Shown here: positions 3,538 to 11,319 of the stretch, one piece after another
Numbering within the stretch: position 1 is the stretch's first letter
Layout: every line of letters starts with the position of its first letter
Assembly (NCBI GenBank): GCA_937958265.1
Contig: CALGNX010000017.1
Span: 1 to 64,000 of the forward strand
Origin: an uncultured Algibacter sp.
GTDB taxonomy: Bacteria > Bacteroidota > Bacteroidia > Flavobacteriales > Flavobacteriaceae
Direction of reading: 5' to 3'
DNA: 64,000 nt
Position numbers and translations under genes: made by a program
The notes under the pieces: generated by a model
Databases searched by the model: none
Told to the model about the DNA's origin: nothing
The model's input: only the letters and a program-made list of their open reading frames with translations

Positions 3538-3587
3538 TTAACATTCACATAACCTTTTAATCATAGATGTTTAATGTTTTGGTAACA
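3538..3587 (+). promoter_or_regulatory. Pho-box-like array, five hexamers at 11-bp period
   Basis: Hexamers start at 3538 (TTAACA), 3549 (ATAACC), 3560 (ATCATA), 3571 (TTAATG) and 3582 (GTAACA), exactly 11 bases apart. PhoP/PhoB family response regulators bind direct repeats of TTAACA-like hexamers with 5-base spacers (Bacillus PhoP consensus), so this is a good candidate operator for the gene starting at 3640. The array is seen directly; the regulator is inferred. Confidence 0.55.
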
Positions 3588-3639
3588 TAAAAATATAGAC
3601 TCTGGCTATATGTTTGCAGTAGAAATACTAAAAAAACAA

Positions 3640-4017
3640 ATGAAATCAATTTTATACATCGCATTACTTTTTTTTACCACAGTATCTTTCGCTCAAGGCT
3701 CTAGATCCATAAGTGGTCATGTATTGGATTTTGAATCTGGTAACACCCCCTTAACACTTGCTAAAGTTAGCATTAAGGAAACCGGCGCACAAGTATTAAC
3801 CAACGAAAAGGGATTTTTCATATTTGAAAATTTAAAAGAGGGTACATACACCCTAATAAGTAGTTTTATTGGCTATGATAAAAAGGTATTAAAAATAAAA
3901 GCATCTGCCAATGCTAATAAAACGGAGATAATTTTGGAGCCTAGCACCATATCGTTGGATGATTTTATTACAACTATGGCAAATGCAGATACGAATACAG
4001 CGAGCCGGGTAAAATAA
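3640..4017 (+). CDS. secreted carboxypeptidase-regulatory-like domain protein (orphan)
   Basis: A 125-residue exported protein with a signal peptide ending ...TVSFAQ, followed by one CarboxypepD_reg-like beta-sandwich (ISGHVLDFESGNTPLTLAKV ... GYDKKV), the domain normally found at the N-terminus of TonB-dependent receptors. Here it ends with a short polar tail and a stop instead of continuing into a plug and barrel. An upstream in-frame ATG at 3610 would put ten residues ahead of the signal peptide, so 3640 is preferred. A strong terminator follows at 4061-4089, so it is a complete transcription unit. It could be a decayed receptor or a genuine small periplasmic protein; the intact signal peptide and the Pho-box-like array favour the latter. 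Confidence 0.75.
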   Translation: MKSILYIALLFFTTVSFAQGSRSISGHVLDFESGNTPLTLAKVSIKETGAQVLTNEKGFFIFENLKEGTYTLISSFIGYDKKVLKIKASANANKTEIILEPSTISLDDFITTMANADTNTASRVK

Positions 4018-4060
4018 ATTCCTAATTTTAAAGTTACTTTACAAACGATATTTTTAGAAA

Positions 4061-4096
4061 ATCAGCTTACAATACAATTGTAAGCTGATTTTTTTT
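4061..4096 (+). terminator. intrinsic terminator
   Basis: A perfect 12-bp stem (4061-4072 with 4078-4089), a 5-base loop and a following run of T. It closes the small gene ending at 4017. Confidence 0.85.
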
Positions 4097-4246
4097 CTAC
4101 TTGTCTTTTAAAAAAATCCATCAAGTAAAAGAACTGTAAGAAAACATTTTAAAAATATTAAATTTTAGTATTTATCTTACGCTTAATAAACTACCTTTTT
4201 TAATGTTAATAAAACATTAATTGAATTGAATTTTAAAGAAGATTTG

Positions 4247-4285
4247 TTAACACTATCCTAACACTTTTATTACAGTTGTTTAATC
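4247..4285 (+). promoter_or_regulatory. Pho-box-like array upstream of the TonB receptor
   Basis: Hexamers start at 4247 (TTAACA), 4258 (CTAACA), 4269 (ATTACA) and 4280 (TTAATC), again an exact 11-bp period. A near-consensus -7 element, TTTCTTTG, is at 4317-4324, which puts the array at about -84 to -46 from the predicted transcription start. This fits an activator binding just upstream of the core promoter. Confidence 0.55.
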
Positions 4286-4347
4286 CATAAATACCCTAGA
4301 ATTAAGAAAACGTTAGTTTCTTTGCGGCGAATTATTTTAATAAACTA

Positions 4348-7155
4348 ATGAAAAAATTTGCACTATTATTTATCCTGTTTATCACTCTGCCTGCTTTAGC
4401 ACAGAATACTGGTACTGTATCTGGATTACTTACAGATAAAGAATATAATAACGAACCCTTAGCATTTGCTAATGTTTTAATTAAAAACACCACCAAAGGA
4501 ACCACTTCTGATTTTGATGGCACCTATACCTTTACCGATTTAGATGCTGGTAATTATATTTTACAATTTAGTTTTGTGGGCTACGAGACACAGGAACTTC
4601 CAATTACTATAACTGCAGGTGGAACAACGAAACTAAATGTTGCCATGAATGCCAGTGCAGCATCTCTAGACGAGGTTGTTATTACTACAACTACAAAACG
4701 AGAAAGTCTTTCTGTTTTATTAACGGAACAACGAAAGGCTGTTGAAATGAAACAAAGTATTGGCGCCCAAGAACTCTCTAGAAAAGGTGTAGCTAATGCA
4801 GCTAGCGCAGTGGCAAAAATATCTGGAGTATCCAAACAAGAGGGGTCTAGCAATGTATATGTTCGTGGACTTGGTGATAGATATTTAAACACCTCTATGA
4901 ATGGTTTATCCTTACCCTCTAACAACGTTAATAAAAAGAATATTGATCTTAACTTATTCTCTTCAGATGTAATACAAAACGTATCGATAAGTAAAGCATA
5001 TGCATCTCAATTTTACGGAGATTTTGCTGCTGGTAATGTAGATATTACCTCTAAAGAGCATAACGGCGGTTTTTTTGTTGATGCCTTTGTAGGTTCAGGT
5101 TTTAACACTAATGCTATCGATAAAAATTTTGTAAGAAGCGAAGGCACAGGTTATTTTGGCTATTATGGCAGACACGATAGAAATCCATTTGCCATTATAC
5201 TATCTCATGGCGTAGATCCTGCTACAGCTAACACACCTATCAATATAGCGTATGGCGCTTCCATTGGAAATTCATTTAAATTTGATAATGGATCTAAATT
5301 AAGTGTTTTCTTTACCGGTGGCTTCGAGAACAATTATGAATATAGAGCAGGAAAAAACGTAAATTTTTCAACCGTAGAGAACAAGGCTTTTGAAGCTTCA
5401 GAAGAATTTGAGTATGGCACTACTACCACAGCTATGTCGAATTTAAAATATAAAATTAACGATGAAAACCGCTTAAGCTTTAATTCGATATTTATTAATA
5501 GTTCTTCTGATGAAGTTAGCTATTTTGGTATTGATGGCAGAGGCAGAAATAGAGATGCCATTATAGATACCGATCAAGGCTTTTACCAACAAAACATCCA
5601 ATTCGATCAAACCAGAATGTTTGTAAATCAATTATTAGGAAACCATAAAAGTGGCAAACTAGAATTGGACTGGGGGTTTGGCTACAATAAAGTTTTTTCC
5701 GACCAACCAGATAGAAAGCGTTTTAGCGTTGAAAATTACCAATTTGCATTAGATAACGATCCTGCTACGAATCCTACATTTTTTAGCAATGTAGTATTTG
5801 ATAATCAACGTTATTTTCAAAAAATTGAAGATGACGAATATAATGGCCGCTTAAACCTAGCCTATAAAGCTAATGATAATTTAAAATTTAATTTTGGTTA
5901 CAATGGCCGAAATAAAACCAGGCAATTTAATAATATTAGATATGGTTATGATATTGTTAATAATGGTTTTCAAATAACTGATATAAATAATTTAGATAGC
6001 ATTTTTAATTTAGAAAACTTAAATCTTAACGCATCTTCTAATGGCATTTACGAAATTAAAGTTATAAATCCATTCCCAGGCCTACCAAACACCAACAGAC
6101 CAGGTCTTGCAGAAAACACCTATAGCGGTACTCTTAATATATATTCGGGTTACACGGATGCTGAAATTACAGCAAATGAAAAATGGTTATTTGTACCAGG
6201 TATTAGAGTAGAAAGTTTTGAACAAAATATTTCTTACGATGTTATTAATTTAGGAAATGATGGTAAAGACACAAAAACATCAAACGAAACTTTTATACTA
6301 CCTAGCCTAAATATTAAATATACTTTAAACGACGAGCAAAACTTACGTTTATCTGCCAGCAAAACAGTATCTACACCAGAATTTAAAGAAATCGCACCAT
6401 TTGTTTATGAAGATGTATCTACAAAAATTGGTGGAAATCCAGACGTGTTAGGTGTTTCCAACGTGCTAAATATTGATTTAAAATACGAATGGTTTTATAG
6501 TAAGAGTGAAATATTTTCAGCAAGTGTATTTACAAAACAAATAGATAACCCAATTAATCTAGTTGTAGTTGGCGATGCTACAGGAACACAGCGTTATGTA
6601 AGAACAGGAGACCAAGCTACCATTTATGGAGTTGAAGTTGAATTAAGAAAAAATATATTGATTGATGAAGATGAAAACTCAAACTTATCCTTTGGTATTA
6701 ATGCCACATATATGCACACTAAACAAGATTTATTTGAAACTATAGATGGTACTTTCGATTTAGCTTTTGATAGAAATGAAGATGCATTACAAGGTGCTTC
6801 ACCCTTTTTATTAAACGCAGATATTAGTTACTCACCAACATCCTTTAAAAATTACCAACCGGTTGCTAATCTGGTATTTTCTTATTTCTCAGACCGTATT
6901 GATGCATTAGGCTCTGGTGATCTAGGTAATGTTGTAGAAAAAGGAATCCCAACTCTAGATTTTATTTGGAAAAATACAATTAACGAAAATTTCGAAATAA
7001 ACCTTAGTGCCAAAAACCTATTAAATCCTACTGTACAATATGTAAGAGAGGACCAAAATTTGGGCGATGTTTTGGTAGTATCTGCCAATGGAAAAGGTGT
7101 AACAGATTACAAAAGAGGTTTAAATATTGGCCTTCAACTAAAATACAAATTTTAA
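4348..7155 (+). CDS. TonB-dependent outer-membrane receptor
   Basis: A 935-residue outer-membrane receptor that would import a substrate into the periplasm using TonB energy. In order: signal peptide (ends LPALAQ), CarboxypepD_reg-like domain (about residues 20-110, GTVSGLLTDKEYNNEPLAFA), plug domain (about 130-240, with VYVRGLGDRYLNTSMNG), then a long beta-barrel ending LKYKF with a terminal aromatic. The next gene, 33 bases downstream, encodes a surface-type lipoprotein, so the two probably act together like SusC with its partner, although that partner is not SusD-like. The Pho-box-like array upstream and the phosphate transporter nearby suggest a phosphorus-related substrate (inference). 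Start ATG at 4348 places the signal peptide correctly. Confidence 0.9.
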   Translation: MKKFALLFILFITLPALAQNTGTVSGLLTDKEYNNEPLAFANVLIKNTTKGTTSDFDGTYTFTDLDAGNYILQFSFVGYETQELPITITAGGTTKLNVAMNASAASLDEVVITTTTKRESLSVLLTEQRKAVEMKQSIGAQELSRKGVANAASAVAKISGVSKQEGSSNVYVRGLGDRYLNTSMNGLSLPSNNVNKKNIDLNLFSSDVIQNVSISKAYASQFYGDFAAGNVDITSKEHNGGFFVDAFVGSGFNTNAIDKNFVRSEGTGYFGYYGRHDRNPFAIILSHGVDPATANTPINIAYGASIGNSFKFDNGSKLSVFFTGGFENNYEYRAGKNVNFSTVENKAFEASEEFEYGTTTTAMSNLKYKINDENRLSFNSIFINSSSDEVSYFGIDGRGRNRDAIIDTDQGFYQQNIQFDQTRMFVNQLLGNHKSGKLELDWGFGYNKVFSDQPDRKRFSVENYQFALDNDPATNPTFFSNVVFDNQRYFQKIEDDEYNGRLNLAYKANDNLKFNFGYNGRNKTRQFNNIRYGYDIVNNGFQITDINNLDSIFNLENLNLNASSNGIYEIKVINPFPGLPNTNRPGLAENTYSGTLNIYSGYTDAEITANEKWLFVPGIRVESFEQNISYDVINLGNDGKDTKTSNETFILPSLNIKYTLNDEQNLRLSASKTVSTPEFKEIAPFVYEDVSTKIGGNPDVLGVSNVLNIDLKYEWFYSKSEIFSASVFTKQIDNPINLVVVGDATGTQRYVRTGDQATIYGVEVELRKNILIDEDENSNLSFGINATYMHTKQDLFETIDGTFDLAFDRNEDALQGASPFLLNADISYSPTSFKNYQPVANLVFSYFSDRIDALGSGDLGNVVEKGIPTLDFIWKNTINENFEINLSAKNLLNPTVQYVREDQNLGDVLVVSANGKGVTDYKRGLNIGLQLKYKF

Positions 7156-7188
7156 AAAACTACTTAAAAAAACTAAAAACCAATTACA

Positions 7189-8358
7189 ATGAAAAAACAA
7201 TTAATTTTAGGATTAGTATTAGTTTCAATGCTATTTTCTTGCTCCACCGATGATACTGCAGATATTATAATTAACGATAATAGCGTAACAAACAATAATG
7301 GCGGAGGTAACACAACAGATCCTCAAACTATTTTTTTATCCGGTACTTTTACAGAAGATTTAACTTTAGATGCTAATAACACTTACAAATTAAATGGAGC
7401 GCTAATTATGGCTAGCGGAACCACATTAACAATTCCTGCATGTATGACGATTGAGGCTTTATCGGCTGGATCTAACGTTTACATTGCTATTGCCCAAGGT
7501 GCAAAAATAGTTGCTAACGGCACTGCTAGCTGCCCAATAGTATTCACTTCAGATGCTGCAAACCCTTCTGCAGGCGATTGGGGAGGTTTAATTTTACTAG
7601 GTAAAGCCCCTATAAATTCGGTAGCAGGTTCCGCAACAGCAACTTCTGAAATAGCTGCTTTACCTTACGGCGGAAACAGCTCAGACGATAACTCCGGGTC
7701 ATTAAACTATGTTCGTGTAGAATATTCTGGCGGATCGGCTGATGGACAATCTGAAAATAACGGCATATCATTTTATGGTGTTGGAAATGGAACTGTTGTA
7801 AATTACATCCAAGCTTTTGAAGGAAAAGATGATGGTATTGAGTTTTTTGGAGGTACTGTAAACGCTAATTTTATTTCTGTAATTAATGCACAAGACGATT
7901 CAGTAGATTGGACTGAAGGTTACTCTGGTACGTTAACCAACGTTTACATATCAAATAGAATTACAGATGATAAAGCTATAGAAGCAGATGGTTTCAATAC
8001 CGATTTTAGTAATGCAACAGGAATATTTTCCAAACCAACAGTAACCAATTTAACCATAGTAGGACAAGGAACTGCTGCTGGCCACGCTGAAGCTATAAGA
8101 CTTAGAGCAGGTACACAAGGAATTTTTAGTAATGTGCATATTACTGGTTATGTTGAAGGTTTTGATCTTGATGATACAGATACAGGTAATGGCGTAATAA
8201 GCGACGATTTACAAATTAGTAGCGTAACTTTTGTAGATGTTACTACCAAACTAAAAAATGATACCTCAGTAGATTTTACTGAAGCCGATTTTTTCATGGC
8301 CGAAGGCACAGCTACAGCAACAGACTATGCTGCTTGGGGAGCTTCTTGGACAAGATAA
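7189..8358 (+). CDS. lipoprotein, beta-helix-like, TonB-receptor partner
   Basis: A 389-residue lipoprotein: hydrophobic leader, lipobox LFSC with Cys18, then a low-complexity Asn/Gly/Asp linker. The rest is rich in Gly, Asn and Asp with repeated short strands (ISFYGVGNGT, IEFFGGTVNANFISVINAQDDSVDW), suggesting a right-handed parallel beta-helix. There is no T9SS sorting domain; it ends GASWTR. It lies 33 bases after the TonB receptor, in the same orientation with no intervening terminator, so the two are likely co-transcribed. It probably sits on the outer membrane and captures or processes the substrate of that receptor. No catalytic motif was recognised, so no enzymatic activity is claimed. 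Confidence 0.85.
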   Translation: MKKQLILGLVLVSMLFSCSTDDTADIIINDNSVTNNNGGGNTTDPQTIFLSGTFTEDLTLDANNTYKLNGALIMASGTTLTIPACMTIEALSAGSNVYIAIAQGAKIVANGTASCPIVFTSDAANPSAGDWGGLILLGKAPINSVAGSATATSEIAALPYGGNSSDDNSGSLNYVRVEYSGGSADGQSENNGISFYGVGNGTVVNYIQAFEGKDDGIEFFGGTVNANFISVINAQDDSVDWTEGYSGTLTNVYISNRITDDKAIEADGFNTDFSNATGIFSKPTVTNLTIVGQGTAAGHAEAIRLRAGTQGIFSNVHITGYVEGFDLDDTDTGNGVISDDLQISSVTFVDVTTKLKNDTSVDFTEADFFMAEGTATATDYAAWGASWTR

Positions 8359-8370
8359 AAACACACGCTT

Positions 8371-8422
8371 AATTGCTAATAAAAAAAGCATCCCAAATGG
8401 GATGCTTTTTTTATTAGCAATT
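8371..8422. terminator. bidirectional terminator
   Basis: A perfect 24-bp stem (8371-8394 with 8399-8422) and a 4-base loop, with A/T runs inside the stem. It can end both the receptor-lipoprotein transcript and the convergent gene that ends at 8434. Its core (AAAAAGCATCCC) recurs in the terminator at 12421-12460. Confidence 0.85.
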
Positions 8423-8433
8423 ATAAATAATTA

Positions 8434-8748
8434 TTATAAAGAAGCTATATTTTTAGTGTAATCTACCTCTTTTAATTTACCCTCAATAACATAAATCCAT
8501 TTCCCAATTTTCTTACCATTCTTATAGTAAGCAGTAACCTGTTTCAACCCCTCTTCATCATAACTTAGCCACTCCCCCTGTAATTTACCTTCTGCTGTAT
8601 AAGTTCCTGTTTGGCTCACCTCTCCATTATCATGAAAGTAAACCACCTCAATTAAATTAGTGTCTTTGTTTAACGTTAACGTTCTTTCTTTTTGTGCAAA
8701 ACAAAACGTAGAGAAAAGAACTGTAATTAATAGTGCTATATTTTTCAT
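8434..8748 (-). CDS. periplasmic YwqK/MORN-repeat-like protein
   Basis: A 104-residue exported protein. A signal peptide ending CFAQ is followed by YwqK-type repeats related to MORN motifs: YFHDNGEVSQTGTY, GKLQGEWLSYDEEG, YYKNGKKIGKWIYV. The pattern '(x)GK..GeW..Y...G' is clear. Such proteins are often called antitoxin-like in databases, but no toxin partner is present here, and MORN-like sheets more often act in binding. Its -7 element TATATTTG (minus strand, 8779-8786) lies immediately beside a four-unit Pho-box-like array at 8795-8833, so it may be phosphate-regulated together with the neighbouring transporter. Confidence 0.8.
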   Translation of the reverse strand: MKNIALLITVLFSTFCFAQKERTLTLNKDTNLIEVVYFHDNGEVSQTGTYTAEGKLQGEWLSYDEEGLKQVTAYYKNGKKIGKWIYVIEGKLKEVDYTKNIASL

Positions 8749-8778
8749 AATTCGACAGATTTATTAATGTTAGTTTTA

Positions 8779-8833
8779 CAAATATATAATAAAATTTACA
8801 CAGAAACAACATTCACGTAACATTTAGTTAACA
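8779..8833 (-). promoter_or_regulatory. promoter plus Pho-box-like array for the YwqK-like gene
   Basis: On the minus strand TATATTTG (8779-8786) is a perfect -7 element. Just upstream of it lie four hexamers at an exact 11-bp period (read on the plus strand: TTTACA 8795, ACAACA 8806, GTAACA 8817, TTAACA 8828). The array therefore covers about -20 to -60 of this promoter. It could also serve the divergent transporter gene, whose own two-unit array is at 8953-8969. Confidence 0.5.
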
Positions 8834-8952
8834 TAAGAGCTATAAAACACCGTTTTACAGCTCTTTACAAGGCCACAAAACACTAATATAAGCACATTCT
8901 AAAGCACAGAAAGACCTCTCAAGGCTTATATTTAAGACATATAGCGTAGAAC

Positions 8953-8997
8953 ATAACATTTCCGTAACATTGAGTTCGTTTTAAAATAAGACATTTG
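8953..8997 (+). promoter_or_regulatory. Pho-box-like pair and promoter for the PiT transporter
   Basis: ATAACA (8953) and GTAACA (8964) are 11 bases apart and are followed by a near-consensus -7 element GACATTTG (8990-8997). The pair would lie at roughly -50 to -33, the expected position for an activating PhoB-type box. Confidence 0.5.
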
Positions 8998-9024
8998 TAG
9001 CCATTAATTTTTTTGATTTTTTAG

Positions 9025-11319
9025 ATGGGAGATATTTATACTTATATGCTTGTAGCTTTAGCTTTTCTAGCTATAGCAGATTTAGTTGTTGGTGTTAGTA
9101 ATGATGCTGTAAATTTTCTTAACTCTGCCATAGGCTCGAAAGCAGTTTCTTTTAAAACAGTAATGATAATTGCAAGCTTAGGTGTTGCTGTAGGCGCTTT
9201 AACTTCAGGTGGCATGATGGAGGTTGCTAGAAAAGGCATATTTAACCCAGGCGAATTCATGTTTGATGAAATCATGATCATTTTTATGGCTGTAATGATT
9301 ACCGATATTTTACTGCTCGATTTTTTTAACACCCTGGGGCTACCAACCTCTACTACCGTATCCATAGTATTCGAACTTTTAGGGGCTTCAGTTTGTATCG
9401 CGCTTATTAAAATATATGCTGATAGTGATTTATCCATACTAGATCTGGGAAATTACATTAATAATGAAAAAGCTATAGAAATTATACTCGGTATTTTACT
9501 CTCCGTAGTGGTTGCATTTTCGGTTGGCGCAATTATCCAATTATTTTCAAGACTTTTATTAACCTTTAACTTCGAGGAAAAGCCCAAAATATACGCTGCT
9601 ATATTTAGTGGTTTTGCTGTTACATCTATCATGTATTTTATTCTTATAAAAGGAATAAAAAATGCATCTTTTATGGATACCTCGACTAAAGCCCTAATAT
9701 CAGCCAACCCATTACTACTGTTAGGTTCTGGTTTTATAATTTTTACTTTAGTTTCACTAATACTAGTAACCTTTTTTAAAACCAATATTTATAAAATCAT
9801 TATAATTGTAGGTACTTTTGCTCTTGCGGTTGCTTTTGCAGGTAATGATTTAGTAAATTTTATTGGTGTACCCATAGCCGCATTAGATGCACATGCTAAT
9901 TTTATAATTAGCGGTGTTTCGCCATCTGATTTTAGAATGTCTAGTTTAGCCAAAGCAATTCCTGCACAACCCCTTTTACTACTATTAGCGGGTTTAATAA
10001 TGGTATTAACTTTATGGTTTTCTAGTAAAGCTAAAGCTGTTGTAAAAACTTCTGTAGATTTATCTAGGCAAGATTCTGGTGAAGAACGTTTTGAGCCAAA
10101 CACTTTATCTAGAAGCTTAGTAAGAGGTACTATCATACTTTCTAAAGGTATTAATTCTATCTTACCAAATACCTTTAAACGCTTTATGGATGAGCGCTTT
10201 GAGAAAGCCAAGCAAACAAAAACTATAAAACCCGAGGATTTACCAGCGTTCGATTTAGTACGCGCCTCTGTTAACCTCATGGTTGCAAGTGTACTTATAT
10301 CAATAGCAACCTCTATGAAACTACCTTTATCTACAACTTATGTTACCTTTATGGTAGCTATGGGTACATCTTTAGCAGATAGAGCTTGGGGCAGTGAAAG
10401 TGCTGTTTATAGAGTTGCTGGCGTATTAAATGTTATTGGTGGCTGGTTTTTTACAGCATTAAGTGCGTTTACTGCCGCTGCTATTATGGCGCTTATTTTA
10501 CATTACGGACGCGGTTATGCATTAGCATCTTTGCTAACCTTAGCTGTAGTAATGCTAAGTAAAAACTACCTTAACCATAGAAAGAAAAATAAATTACAGA
10601 AAAAGGAAAATAAATTAGAAAAAGCAGAAAGCAGCTCGACACAAGGCGTAATTGTTGAAGGTGCAGAAAATATTGCAAATGTAGTTAAACGCGGAAATAC
10701 TATTTATACTAGTGCGATTAACGGACTAGCAACACATAATTTGAAACTATTAAAGAAGAACAAAAAAAATATTGATAAACTATCAAAAGAAATTGAATCG
10801 CTAAGAAATAATGTTTTTTATTTTATTAAAAACCTAAAAGAACCTAGTGTTACAGCAAGTAATTTTCACATTAATATTTTAAGTCACCTACATGATTTAG
10901 CAGAATCCTTAGAGTACATATCCAGCATTAGTTACAAGCACGTAAATAACAATCATAAAAAATTAAAGTTTACACAAATAAAAGAACTAAAAGAAATAGA
11001 TGCTGTCTTGGAACAATTATTTAAAGATGCAAAAGAAGCCTTTGAATCAGAATCTTTTGAAAAAATAGCGTTTGTTCTAAACAAAAAACAAGAAGTTTTT
11101 AATTTATTAACTGAAAAAATATTAAAACAAGTAGAGCGTACTAGAACAGAAGAATCTAGCCCAAAAAACACATCCTTATACTTTAGCTTACTACTAGAAA
11201 CAAAGGACTTACTGAAAGCCACCATGACGCTTTTAGAAGAATACTATAACGCACATGACGCCTCTGTAGAGCCCGCTAAAATTGCTAAAAAACACGAAAA
11301 TAAGATTAAGGAGTGGTAG
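9025..11319 (+). CDS. PiT-family inorganic phosphate transporter with C-terminal PhoU-like domain
   Basis: A 764-residue inner-membrane transporter importing phosphate (or metal-phosphate) with a cation. The two inverted PiT signature motifs are present: GVSNDAVNFLNSAIGS near residue 23 and AGNDLVNFIGVPIAALDA near 272. About ten hydrophobic segments run to roughly residue 520, with a polar loop near 345-410. From about residue 545 to the end there is an all-helical, Lys/Glu-rich region resembling PhoU/DUF47, the regulator usually encoded separately beside pit genes. The fused arrangement suggests built-in gating by phosphate status (inference). Length exceeds the usual 330-530 residues because of this extension. 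Upstream is a Pho-box-like pair; downstream is an unrelated OmpA lipoprotein. Confidence 0.92.
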   Translation: MGDIYTYMLVALAFLAIADLVVGVSNDAVNFLNSAIGSKAVSFKTVMIIASLGVAVGALTSGGMMEVARKGIFNPGEFMFDEIMIIFMAVMITDILLLDFFNTLGLPTSTTVSIVFELLGASVCIALIKIYADSDLSILDLGNYINNEKAIEIILGILLSVVVAFSVGAIIQLFSRLLLTFNFEEKPKIYAAIFSGFAVTSIMYFILIKGIKNASFMDTSTKALISANPLLLLGSGFIIFTLVSLILVTFFKTNIYKIIIIVGTFALAVAFAGNDLVNFIGVPIAALDAHANFIISGVSPSDFRMSSLAKAIPAQPLLLLLAGLIMVLTLWFSSKAKAVVKTSVDLSRQDSGEERFEPNTLSRSLVRGTIILSKGINSILPNTFKRFMDERFEKAKQTKTIKPEDLPAFDLVRASVNLMVASVLISIATSMKLPLSTTYVTFMVAMGTSLADRAWGSESAVYRVAGVLNVIGGWFFTALSAFTAAAIMALILHYGRGYALASLLTLAVVMLSKNYLNHRKKNKLQKKENKLEKAESSSTQGVIVEGAENIANVVKRGNTIYTSAINGLATHNLKLLKKNKKNIDKLSKEIESLRNNVFYFIKNLKEPSVTASNFHINILSHLHDLAESLEYISSISYKHVNNNHKKLKFTQIKELKEIDAVLEQLFKDAKEAFESESFEKIAFVLNKKQEVFNLLTEKILKQVERTRTEESSPKNTSLYFSLLLETKDLLKATMTLLEEYYNAHDASVEPAKIAKKHENKIKEW

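Follow-up and report, generated by a model that had tools for sequence, protein, structure and literature searches.

Putative PHO-box arrays with an 11-bp period around a PiT-family phosphate transporter gene in a flavobacterial genome

Described phosphate regulons and the present locus

The phosphate (PHO) box of Bacillus subtilis, TTAACA, is close to TAACAT, the unit that recurs with an 11-bp period in four arrays (A to D) within the DNA analyzed here, a window of 64,000 nucleotides (bases 1-64000 of contig C17) from a flavobacterial genome. PHO boxes are known from many bacteria (PMC4415409; this paper, PMC8115612, PMC2996285 and PMC13170248 are cited throughout from excerpts of their text), and those of Escherichia coli PhoB and B. 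subtilis PhoP are, like the present arrays, built of head-to-tail 11-nt units (PMC4415409). The locus further resembles these systems in that its boxes precede genes for phosphate transport, as well as the regulator gene in relatives, and differs from them in its TAACAT sequence, in the number of units (2 to about 6), in its flavobacterial -7 element, and in that its genome holds no PstB over cut-off.

Three other systems are close in gene content or in logic. In the Flavobacterium johnsoniae phoBR cluster (Fjoh_0541-0549), a TonB receptor gene and a lipoprotein gene lie beside phoB, together with a porin gene (PMC8115612), and Caulobacter ElpS/Cc0171 likewise pairs a lipoprotein with a TonB receptor (PMC2996285), both likenesses being by description. 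The window differs from the former in having phoBR elsewhere in the genome and no porin gene, and the excerpted main text of PMC8115612 describes no binding site, containing neither 'pho box' nor 'motif'; Caulobacter Cc0171 differs in being reported as constitutive (PMC2996285). In Staphylococcus aureus, the phosphate two-component system is influenced by a PhoU-like regulator associated with a transporter other than Pst (PMC13170248). There, PitR exists as a protein of its own, and NptA belongs to another transporter family, whereas the predicted PhoU domain of the window is fused to PiT. In the open-licence literature (subscription papers not covered), we found no binding-site consensus for a Bacteroidetes PhoB, and a paper on Bacteroides fragilis PhoB (PMC3547664) uses 'box' once and 'consensus' and 'motif' never.

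Our best overall explanation, to which we assign a probability of about 0.86, is that the arrays are PhoB boxes, through which PhoB would activate transcription at A, B and D and possibly repress it at C, with a proposed feedback through a PiT-PhoU protein. When phosphate is scarce, PhoR phosphorylates PhoB, which would then bind head-to-tail along each array; that arrays A-D are PhoB binding sites (PHO boxes with the unit TAACAT and period 11) is very probable from their sequence and distribution. The analysis thereby yields a candidate PhoB-box consensus and promoter geometry for the Flavobacteriaceae, so that regulons would become readable from genome sequence in a family that matters for polymer degradation in the sea and in association with plants. 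The genes concerned are a dGTPase-like gene (minus strand), an orphan CarbopepD gene, genes for a TonB-dependent receptor, a lipoprotein and a small YwqK-like protein (minus strand), and a PiT phosphate transporter gene. The features are as follows.

3538..3587, plus strand: array A, five units of 11 bp upstream of the orphan CarbopepD gene (matrix; conserved in relatives)
3609..3616, plus strand: promoter A -7 element TATGTTTG, 70 nt after the first TAACA (relatives: 46/61 at 69 nt, 5 at 70)
3640..4017, plus strand: orphan CarboxypepD_reg-like secreted protein (ATG 3640, alternative upstream start 3610; PF13715, 67.2 bits for the longer frame)
4201..4226, minus strand: B', weak reversed two-unit pair upstream of array B (profile match E 2.6; matrix 12.4)
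4247..4285, plus strand: array B, four units before the receptor gene (matrix; conserved in relatives)
4317..4324, plus strand: promoter B -7 element TTTCTTTG, 69 nt after the first TAACA (relatives: 31/31 at 69 nt)
4348..7155, plus strand: TonB-dependent receptor (TBDT) with an N-terminal CarbopepD_reg_2 domain (PF00593, PF07715, PF13715)
7189..8358, plus strand: lipoprotein, predicted right-handed beta-helix (structure model; without Pfam family)
8434..8748, minus strand: small YwqK-like secreted protein with weak MORN_2 repeats (PF07661, 19.1 bits, cut-off of 29.6 not reached)
8779..8786, minus strand: YwqK promoter -7 element TATATTTG (read in the window sequence)
8795..8833, plus strand: array C, four units that run over the YwqK promoter in the opposite direction (matrix, profile; conserved in relatives)
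8807..8809, minus strand: YwqK promoter -33 TTG, 20 nt from the -7 element and inside box 2 of array C (N20 in 46/52 relatives with a -7 element)
8953..8969, plus strand: array D, two units before PiT (matrix; conserved in relatives)
8990..8997, plus strand: promoter D -7 element GACATTTG, 36 nt after the first TAACA (relatives 54/56, PiT-selected set 24/26)
9025..11319, plus strand: PiT-family inorganic phosphate transporter with a C-terminal PhoU-fold domain, as modelled (PF01384, 101.5 bits)
10600..11316, plus strand: PhoU-fold C-terminal domain of PiT, modelled stretch (AlphaFold pLDDT 86.6; Foldseek PhoU matches)

The arrays, their conservation and the regulator

A preliminary description of the window had reported four arrays with an exact 11-bp step, which we confirmed on the sequence. 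The units of array A are 3538 TTAACA, 3549 ATAACC, 3560 ATCATA, 3571 TTAATG and 3582 GTAACA, and those of the other arrays start at 4247/4258/4269/4280 (B), 8795/8806/8817/8828 (C) and 8953/8964 (D). All four arrays lie on the plus strand, and array C therefore faces away from the YwqK gene. We scored them with a single-unit matrix trained on 796 units of other species, taken from the 80 related loci described below (the window, the phoB set, the PiT-selected set and the fetched stretches were unused in training, with species overlap possible). On both strands of the window, the five top two-unit scores fall on D, C, A, C and B (23.9-19.2), and the next-best score, 15.6, lies within the orphan gene. 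Control periods of 7-10 and 12-16 reach at most 17.6, such that only period 11 singles out the arrays, and 200 Markov-simulated windows contain a mean of 0.025 sites scoring at least 19 (maximum 1 per run) against 5 in the real window. In the genome as a whole (2.89 Mb in 31 contigs, 99.8% complete, 33% G+C), a profile search, in which 150 of 5021 first-look candidates were scored, ranks the arrays 1, 3, 4 and 5, rank 2 lying upstream of rpsF. The exact pattern TAACATN5TAACAT occurs at two sites in this genome, arrays C and D, from which the pattern was itself chosen.

Words resembling TAACA are common at 33% G+C, and mismatch-tolerant counts come out near or below their controls: a genome search allowing up to 2 mismatches was uninformative (872 matches vs 1018 for the reversed control), and the three-unit pattern with up to 3 mismatches gave 423 matches vs 362. 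The arrays could on these grounds be AT-rich chance repeats without function, but we consider this extremely improbable, as the simulations and the period-, strand- and position-specific conservation in tens of species refute it for A-D. The statement in the preliminary description that other TTAACA sites do not continue at +11 was nearly right: of 73 such sites on the plus strand and 33 on the minus strand, six, all on the plus strand, have a neighbor matching at 5/6 positions 11 bp away, two of them in the arrays (4247 in B, 8828 in C) and four outside (3751, 16379, 22092 and 59367). The reversed pair B' (4201-4226, minus strand) was absent from that description; it scores at least 15 in 18/38 relatives, where it stands 115-129 nt before the receptor start.

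The nearest relatives among named records are Algibacter, which is why we assign the window genome to the Flavobacteriaceae; the top match, an uncultured isolate, is 88% identical in the receptor. Searching named genomes with the receptor gave 94 relatives, and the best 80 loci, some of which end at a contig edge, were kept. Among these 80, the lipoprotein gene is present in 79, dGTPase in 70, YwqK in 65, PiT in 61, and all of them together with the receptor in 57. Taking a two-unit score of at least 15 as conserved, and excluding regions with a missing or cut-off flanking gene, orthologous upstream regions carry the arrays at near-fixed distances: plus-strand sites are found in 61/70 (A), 31/38 (B), 62/65 (C) and 56/61 (D) regions, compared with 4, 18, 0 and 0 regions on the minus strand, the 18 in B being explained by the second, reversed pair B'. 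Word counts made without any matrix agree in period, with TAACA pairs before the first gene numbering 40, 39 and 36 at distances of 44, 11 and 33 (at most 2 at others), and those before PiT numbering 56 at distance 11 (9 at the next-commonest). Across the 80 loci, 361 sites scoring at least 15 lie in the 101 kb inside the four promoter regions vs 19 in 1,164 kb outside, and 13 of these 19 fall within 1.8 kb after the receptor. The idea that such arrays might be as frequent upstream of random genes is thus countered by strong enrichment in their own promoters, although both this count and the 80-locus conservation are partly circular, because the matrix was trained on those loci, and cover these related loci only. 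In the PiT-selected set of 29 other genomes, boxes precede PiT in 26 (one locus, L242, has a doubtful start and was scored as a miss), with 0 to 2 of 29 for control periods. Profile searches of the window genome and nine congeners found sites in 10/10, and 22 of the 30 listed loci (of 48 matches) hold cluster genes; since each genome yielded about 3,600-6,200 first-look candidates, of which 150 were scored, members of the regulon may have been missed.

When 40 genomes were searched with a three-unit pattern, 33 matches were obtained vs 10 for the reversed pattern. Reading the neighboring genes places 14 of the 33 at phosphate genes, seven in the cluster itself and seven at a phoB, phoU-Na/Pi cotransporter (Pi, inorganic phosphate), porin or lipoprotein gene. 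In seven fetched stretches (112 kb, six of them chosen for three-unit matches), every site scoring at least 15 precedes phosphate-type genes (phoB/pstS-like, phoU-Na/Pi cotransporter, porin-pst, lipoprotein, porin, each in single genomes), and the sites that played no part in this selection are found in the interval separating phoB from a pstS-like gene, ahead of a lipoprotein gene, and ahead of a porin-like gene (match below cut-off). One stretch, L232, has no two-unit site at 15; scored as three units, its array reaches 20.4. The receptor/lipoprotein pair lies beside phoB in two other genomes (adjoining it in L232, and in L233 within one cluster of phoB, receptor, two lipoprotein matches, Porin_O_P and PiT) and beside a pst operon in a third (L234, with more than one lipoprotein gene). 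Together with conservation, the boxes at relatives' phoB, pst-like, Na/Pi cotransporter and porin genes support the original proposal of a PhoP/PhoB-type phosphate regulon.

At an expectation value (E) of 0.001, the genome encodes two regulators with a Trans_reg_C domain, of which one best matches PhoB and the other RprY (below cut-off). The former, on contig C10, has receiver and Trans_reg_C domains, its two best matches are the PhoB families TIGR02154 and NF053854, and the adjoining histidine kinase gene best matches the PnpS and PhoR families, below cut-off. A PhoB match is present in 143/149 family genomes; among the best 30 loci, which we examined, all 29 from other genomes carry a minus-strand box pair upstream of phoB (12.8-20.5, 22 at 15 or above), while the plus-strand control gives one at 12.8 or above and none at 15.

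Several observations weigh against the assignment to PhoB. The window genome's own phoB has no array (best score 5.9), the sole exception among the 30 phoB loci examined, and its product scores under the curated cut-offs (218.1 of 296.2 bits for TIGR02154 and 204.9 of 270 for NF053854), as do the PhoB proteins of four relatives. By neighbor reading, 19 of the 33 three-unit matches in relatives lie at genes without a known phosphate link. Upstream regions of the PhoX family contain boxes at 15 or above in 0/30 cases (best 11.1 on the plus and 12.7 on the minus strand), which counts against a broad regulon; in five of this set (L183, L184, L186, L192 and L193), the gene start is at or beyond the stretch edge, and many may not be true PhoX. 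In Pi-depleted F. johnsoniae, OprP is not induced and phoR hardly so (log2 0.76, P 0.056) (PMC8115612). In five congeners (L116, L118, L119, L121 and L137), which are among the cases without a known phosphate link, a three-unit array lies between the gene for a secreted protein of ~197 aa, without a Pfam family in L119, and that for a 291-aa AraC-family regulator, and in the window genome itself a strong three-unit array (25 bits) stands before rpsF, between it and a LytTR response-regulator gene (C16:46429-46461; L030 1501-1528), with no matching -7 geometry by eye.

Binding to direct repeats with such a period is common among OmpR-family regulators. The arrays might bind the other member of that family encoded in the genome, the RprY-like protein (L112), or another direct-repeat binder, and so report an envelope signal instead of phosphate, for which the arrays at genes without a phosphate link and the bare phoB upstream region would speak. 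We regard this as improbable, however, given the boxes upstream of phoB in the 29 other genomes examined and of pst-like, phoU-Na/Pi cotransporter and porin genes, and given that the 3.2 kb around the RprY-like gene hold no array (best 7.9; kinase gene start outside).

Promoter geometry and the reversed array C

Flavobacterial promoters combine a -7 element, TAnnTTTG, with a -33 TTG. The distance from the first TAACA to NNNNTTTG is exactly 69 nt in 46/61 A and 31/31 B regions and 36 nt in 54/56 D regions, the latter distance recurring in 24 of the 26 box-bearing promoters of the PiT-selected set. In relatives, a further box follows the first by 44 nt at A and B and by 11 nt at D, and the proximal box consequently sits 25 nt before the -7 element at all three. 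A TTG located 17-23 nt ahead of the -7 element is present in 4/46 (A), 0/31 (B) and 12/54 (D), for a chance expectation of about 12%, and this rarity resembles activator-dependent promoters. At A, B and D, the boxes would stand in for the -33 element ahead of a weak -7 element, and PhoB would recruit RNA polymerase and so activate the orphan gene, both genes of the receptor/lipoprotein pair, and PiT. From this geometry, we consider activation by PhoB at A, B and D likely.

Array C is arranged differently. Between YwqK and the array, a minus-strand TAnnTTTG is present in 52/62 relatives, with a TTG at 17-23 nt in 47 of these 52 and at exactly 20 nt in 46; in the window, this promoter comprises TATATTTG (8779-8786) and a TTG (8807-8809) with a spacer of 20, the TTG falling within box 2. 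The preliminary description was correct that an array lies before the YwqK gene, but the array is oriented against that gene and overlaps its intact promoter. Boxes running backwards over a complete TTG-N20-TAnnTTTG promoter suggest repression, such that PhoB may turn YwqK off; as the boxes at phoB are reversed as well, we give the shutting off of YwqK through array C about even odds. In Pi-depleted F. johnsoniae, phoB is induced (log2 3.1; PMC8115612), which weakens the equation of reversed boxes with repression, F. johnsoniae's own boxes being unseen.

The same observation favors array C as an activating rather than a repressing site, acting either on YwqK from a reversed position or rightward, over a long leader, on a porin gene or PiT. 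Most relatives have a longer gap to the right of the array, with a porin gene in the three tested. We nevertheless hold activation from C to be possible but doubtful: the YwqK promoter is complete, with its TTG within box 2, and rightward NNNNTTTG offsets are scattered, with no more than 10/62 at one position. The rightward form of this idea ranks lower, because no rightward -7 element is conserved.

The YwqK-PiT gap measures 1,620-2,203 bp in 45 of 59 relatives, 792-842 bp in two and 285-392 bp in 12, and the gap genes of the three relatives tested by Pfam are all phosphate-selective porins (porin O/P). With a gap of only 276 bp (8749-9024), the window lacks the porin gene, as do the 12 relatives with short gaps, and may have lost it.

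The PiT-PhoU protein and the receptor/lipoprotein pair

The PiT protein has 764 residues. Its last 239 residues are predicted to form a helix bundle, and the top PDB matches of this model are PhoU proteins. By title, Foldseek ranks 1-15 are all PhoU or PhoU-like except 1sum (hypothetical), with 3 at E <0.001 and template-modelling (TM) scores of up to 0.71/0.79. The sequence itself is less telling: the C-terminus scores 16.3 bits against PF01895 (gathering score 23.5), and a sequence-profile search of the PDB with it found no PhoU. The model, made for the window's protein, nonetheless points to a PhoU helix-bundle fold. No separate PhoU over cut-off was found in the window genome, its only PhoU match (13.8 bits) lying inside PiT, and no PstB over cut-off among 42 matches (PstS, PstC and PstA were not searched). 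Across the family, PstB is over cut-off in 10/149 genomes and a window-type PiT is found at E 1e-60 in 146/149, the alignment reaching residue 716 or beyond in 143 of the 146 (three weaker rows are unlisted). Two of the three PiT-less genomes are PstB-positive (hypergeometric P 0.012), and one of these two is only 80% complete. Plant-associated Bacteroidetes are described as lacking PstSABC (PMC8115612).

A PhoU-like domain can affect the very transporter to which it belongs. This precedent favors an arrangement in which PhoR senses phosphate alone or through another partner, the PiT PhoU domain only gating transport; against it stands a genome without PstB or separate PhoU over cut-off, and we see the chances of this arrangement as evenly balanced. 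The proposal that PiT-PhoU is instead the Pi sensor for PhoR is based on the PhoU fold, on the family pattern of widespread PiT and rare PstB, and on the precedent of S. aureus, in which PhoU-like partners of non-Pst transporters (PitR, NptA) influence PhoPR (PMC13170248). In this role, the PhoU domain would report phosphate flux to PhoR, closing a feedback loop in one gene; we put it forward tentatively, at somewhat under an even chance. More tentative again is the generalization that most Flavobacteriaceae sense Pi without Pst, through a PiT-PhoU importer and sensor that controls PhoR and carries PhoB boxes on its own promoter, with PhoB both activating (forward boxes) and repressing (reversed boxes over an intact promoter) within one cluster. 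If true, import, sensing and feedback would be united in a single gene. The present findings open phosphate sensing by PhoR in Pst-less lineages to testing. The open-licence literature (subscription papers not covered) yielded no description of a PiT-PhoU fusion, and neither 'fused' nor 'fusion' occurs in the excerpted text of PMC13170248.

The receptor and lipoprotein had been described as lacking an assigned role, for which a published context in fact exists in the FI-FIII lipoproteins of Flavobacterium and in Caulobacter ElpS/Cc0171. In Pi-depleted F. johnsoniae, the receptor Fjoh_0545 and the FII lipoprotein Fjoh_0546, encoded beside phoBR, rise by log2 8.0 and 9.9, respectively (PMC8115612). 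The same paper draws a link from these lipoproteins to one of Caulobacter that is inducible at low Pi, presumably ElpS. ElpS is induced by Pi starvation, and its gene is found together with one for a TonB receptor (PMC2996285). The best NCBIfam match of the window's receptor is TIGR01782 (TonB-Xanth-Caul), below cut-off. No PDB relative of the lipoprotein was found by sequence search, nor did Foldseek return any match with E below 0.001. Its model (predicted local distance difference test, pLDDT, 87.6) aligns by VIA-align, for example, to the alginate epimerase 4nk8 (Z 22.8, root-mean-square deviation 3.1, 273 aligned), and our assignment of a beta-helix is based on VIA-align and on the predicted strands. 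The pair thus resembles published Pi-starvation genes, with the modelled lipoprotein fold and its context fitting the description of FI-FIII, which places both genes in a phosphate-starvation context.

In three congeners (L284, L286 and L292), a lipoprotein match of ~35% comes after the orphan CarbopepD gene, with no receptor in the 3-kb stretch seen. A tblastn search of plasmids with the lipoprotein returned 21 records, all below 60% identity; among the ten listed, one carries an MreB annotation, eight are hypothetical and one is without a feature.

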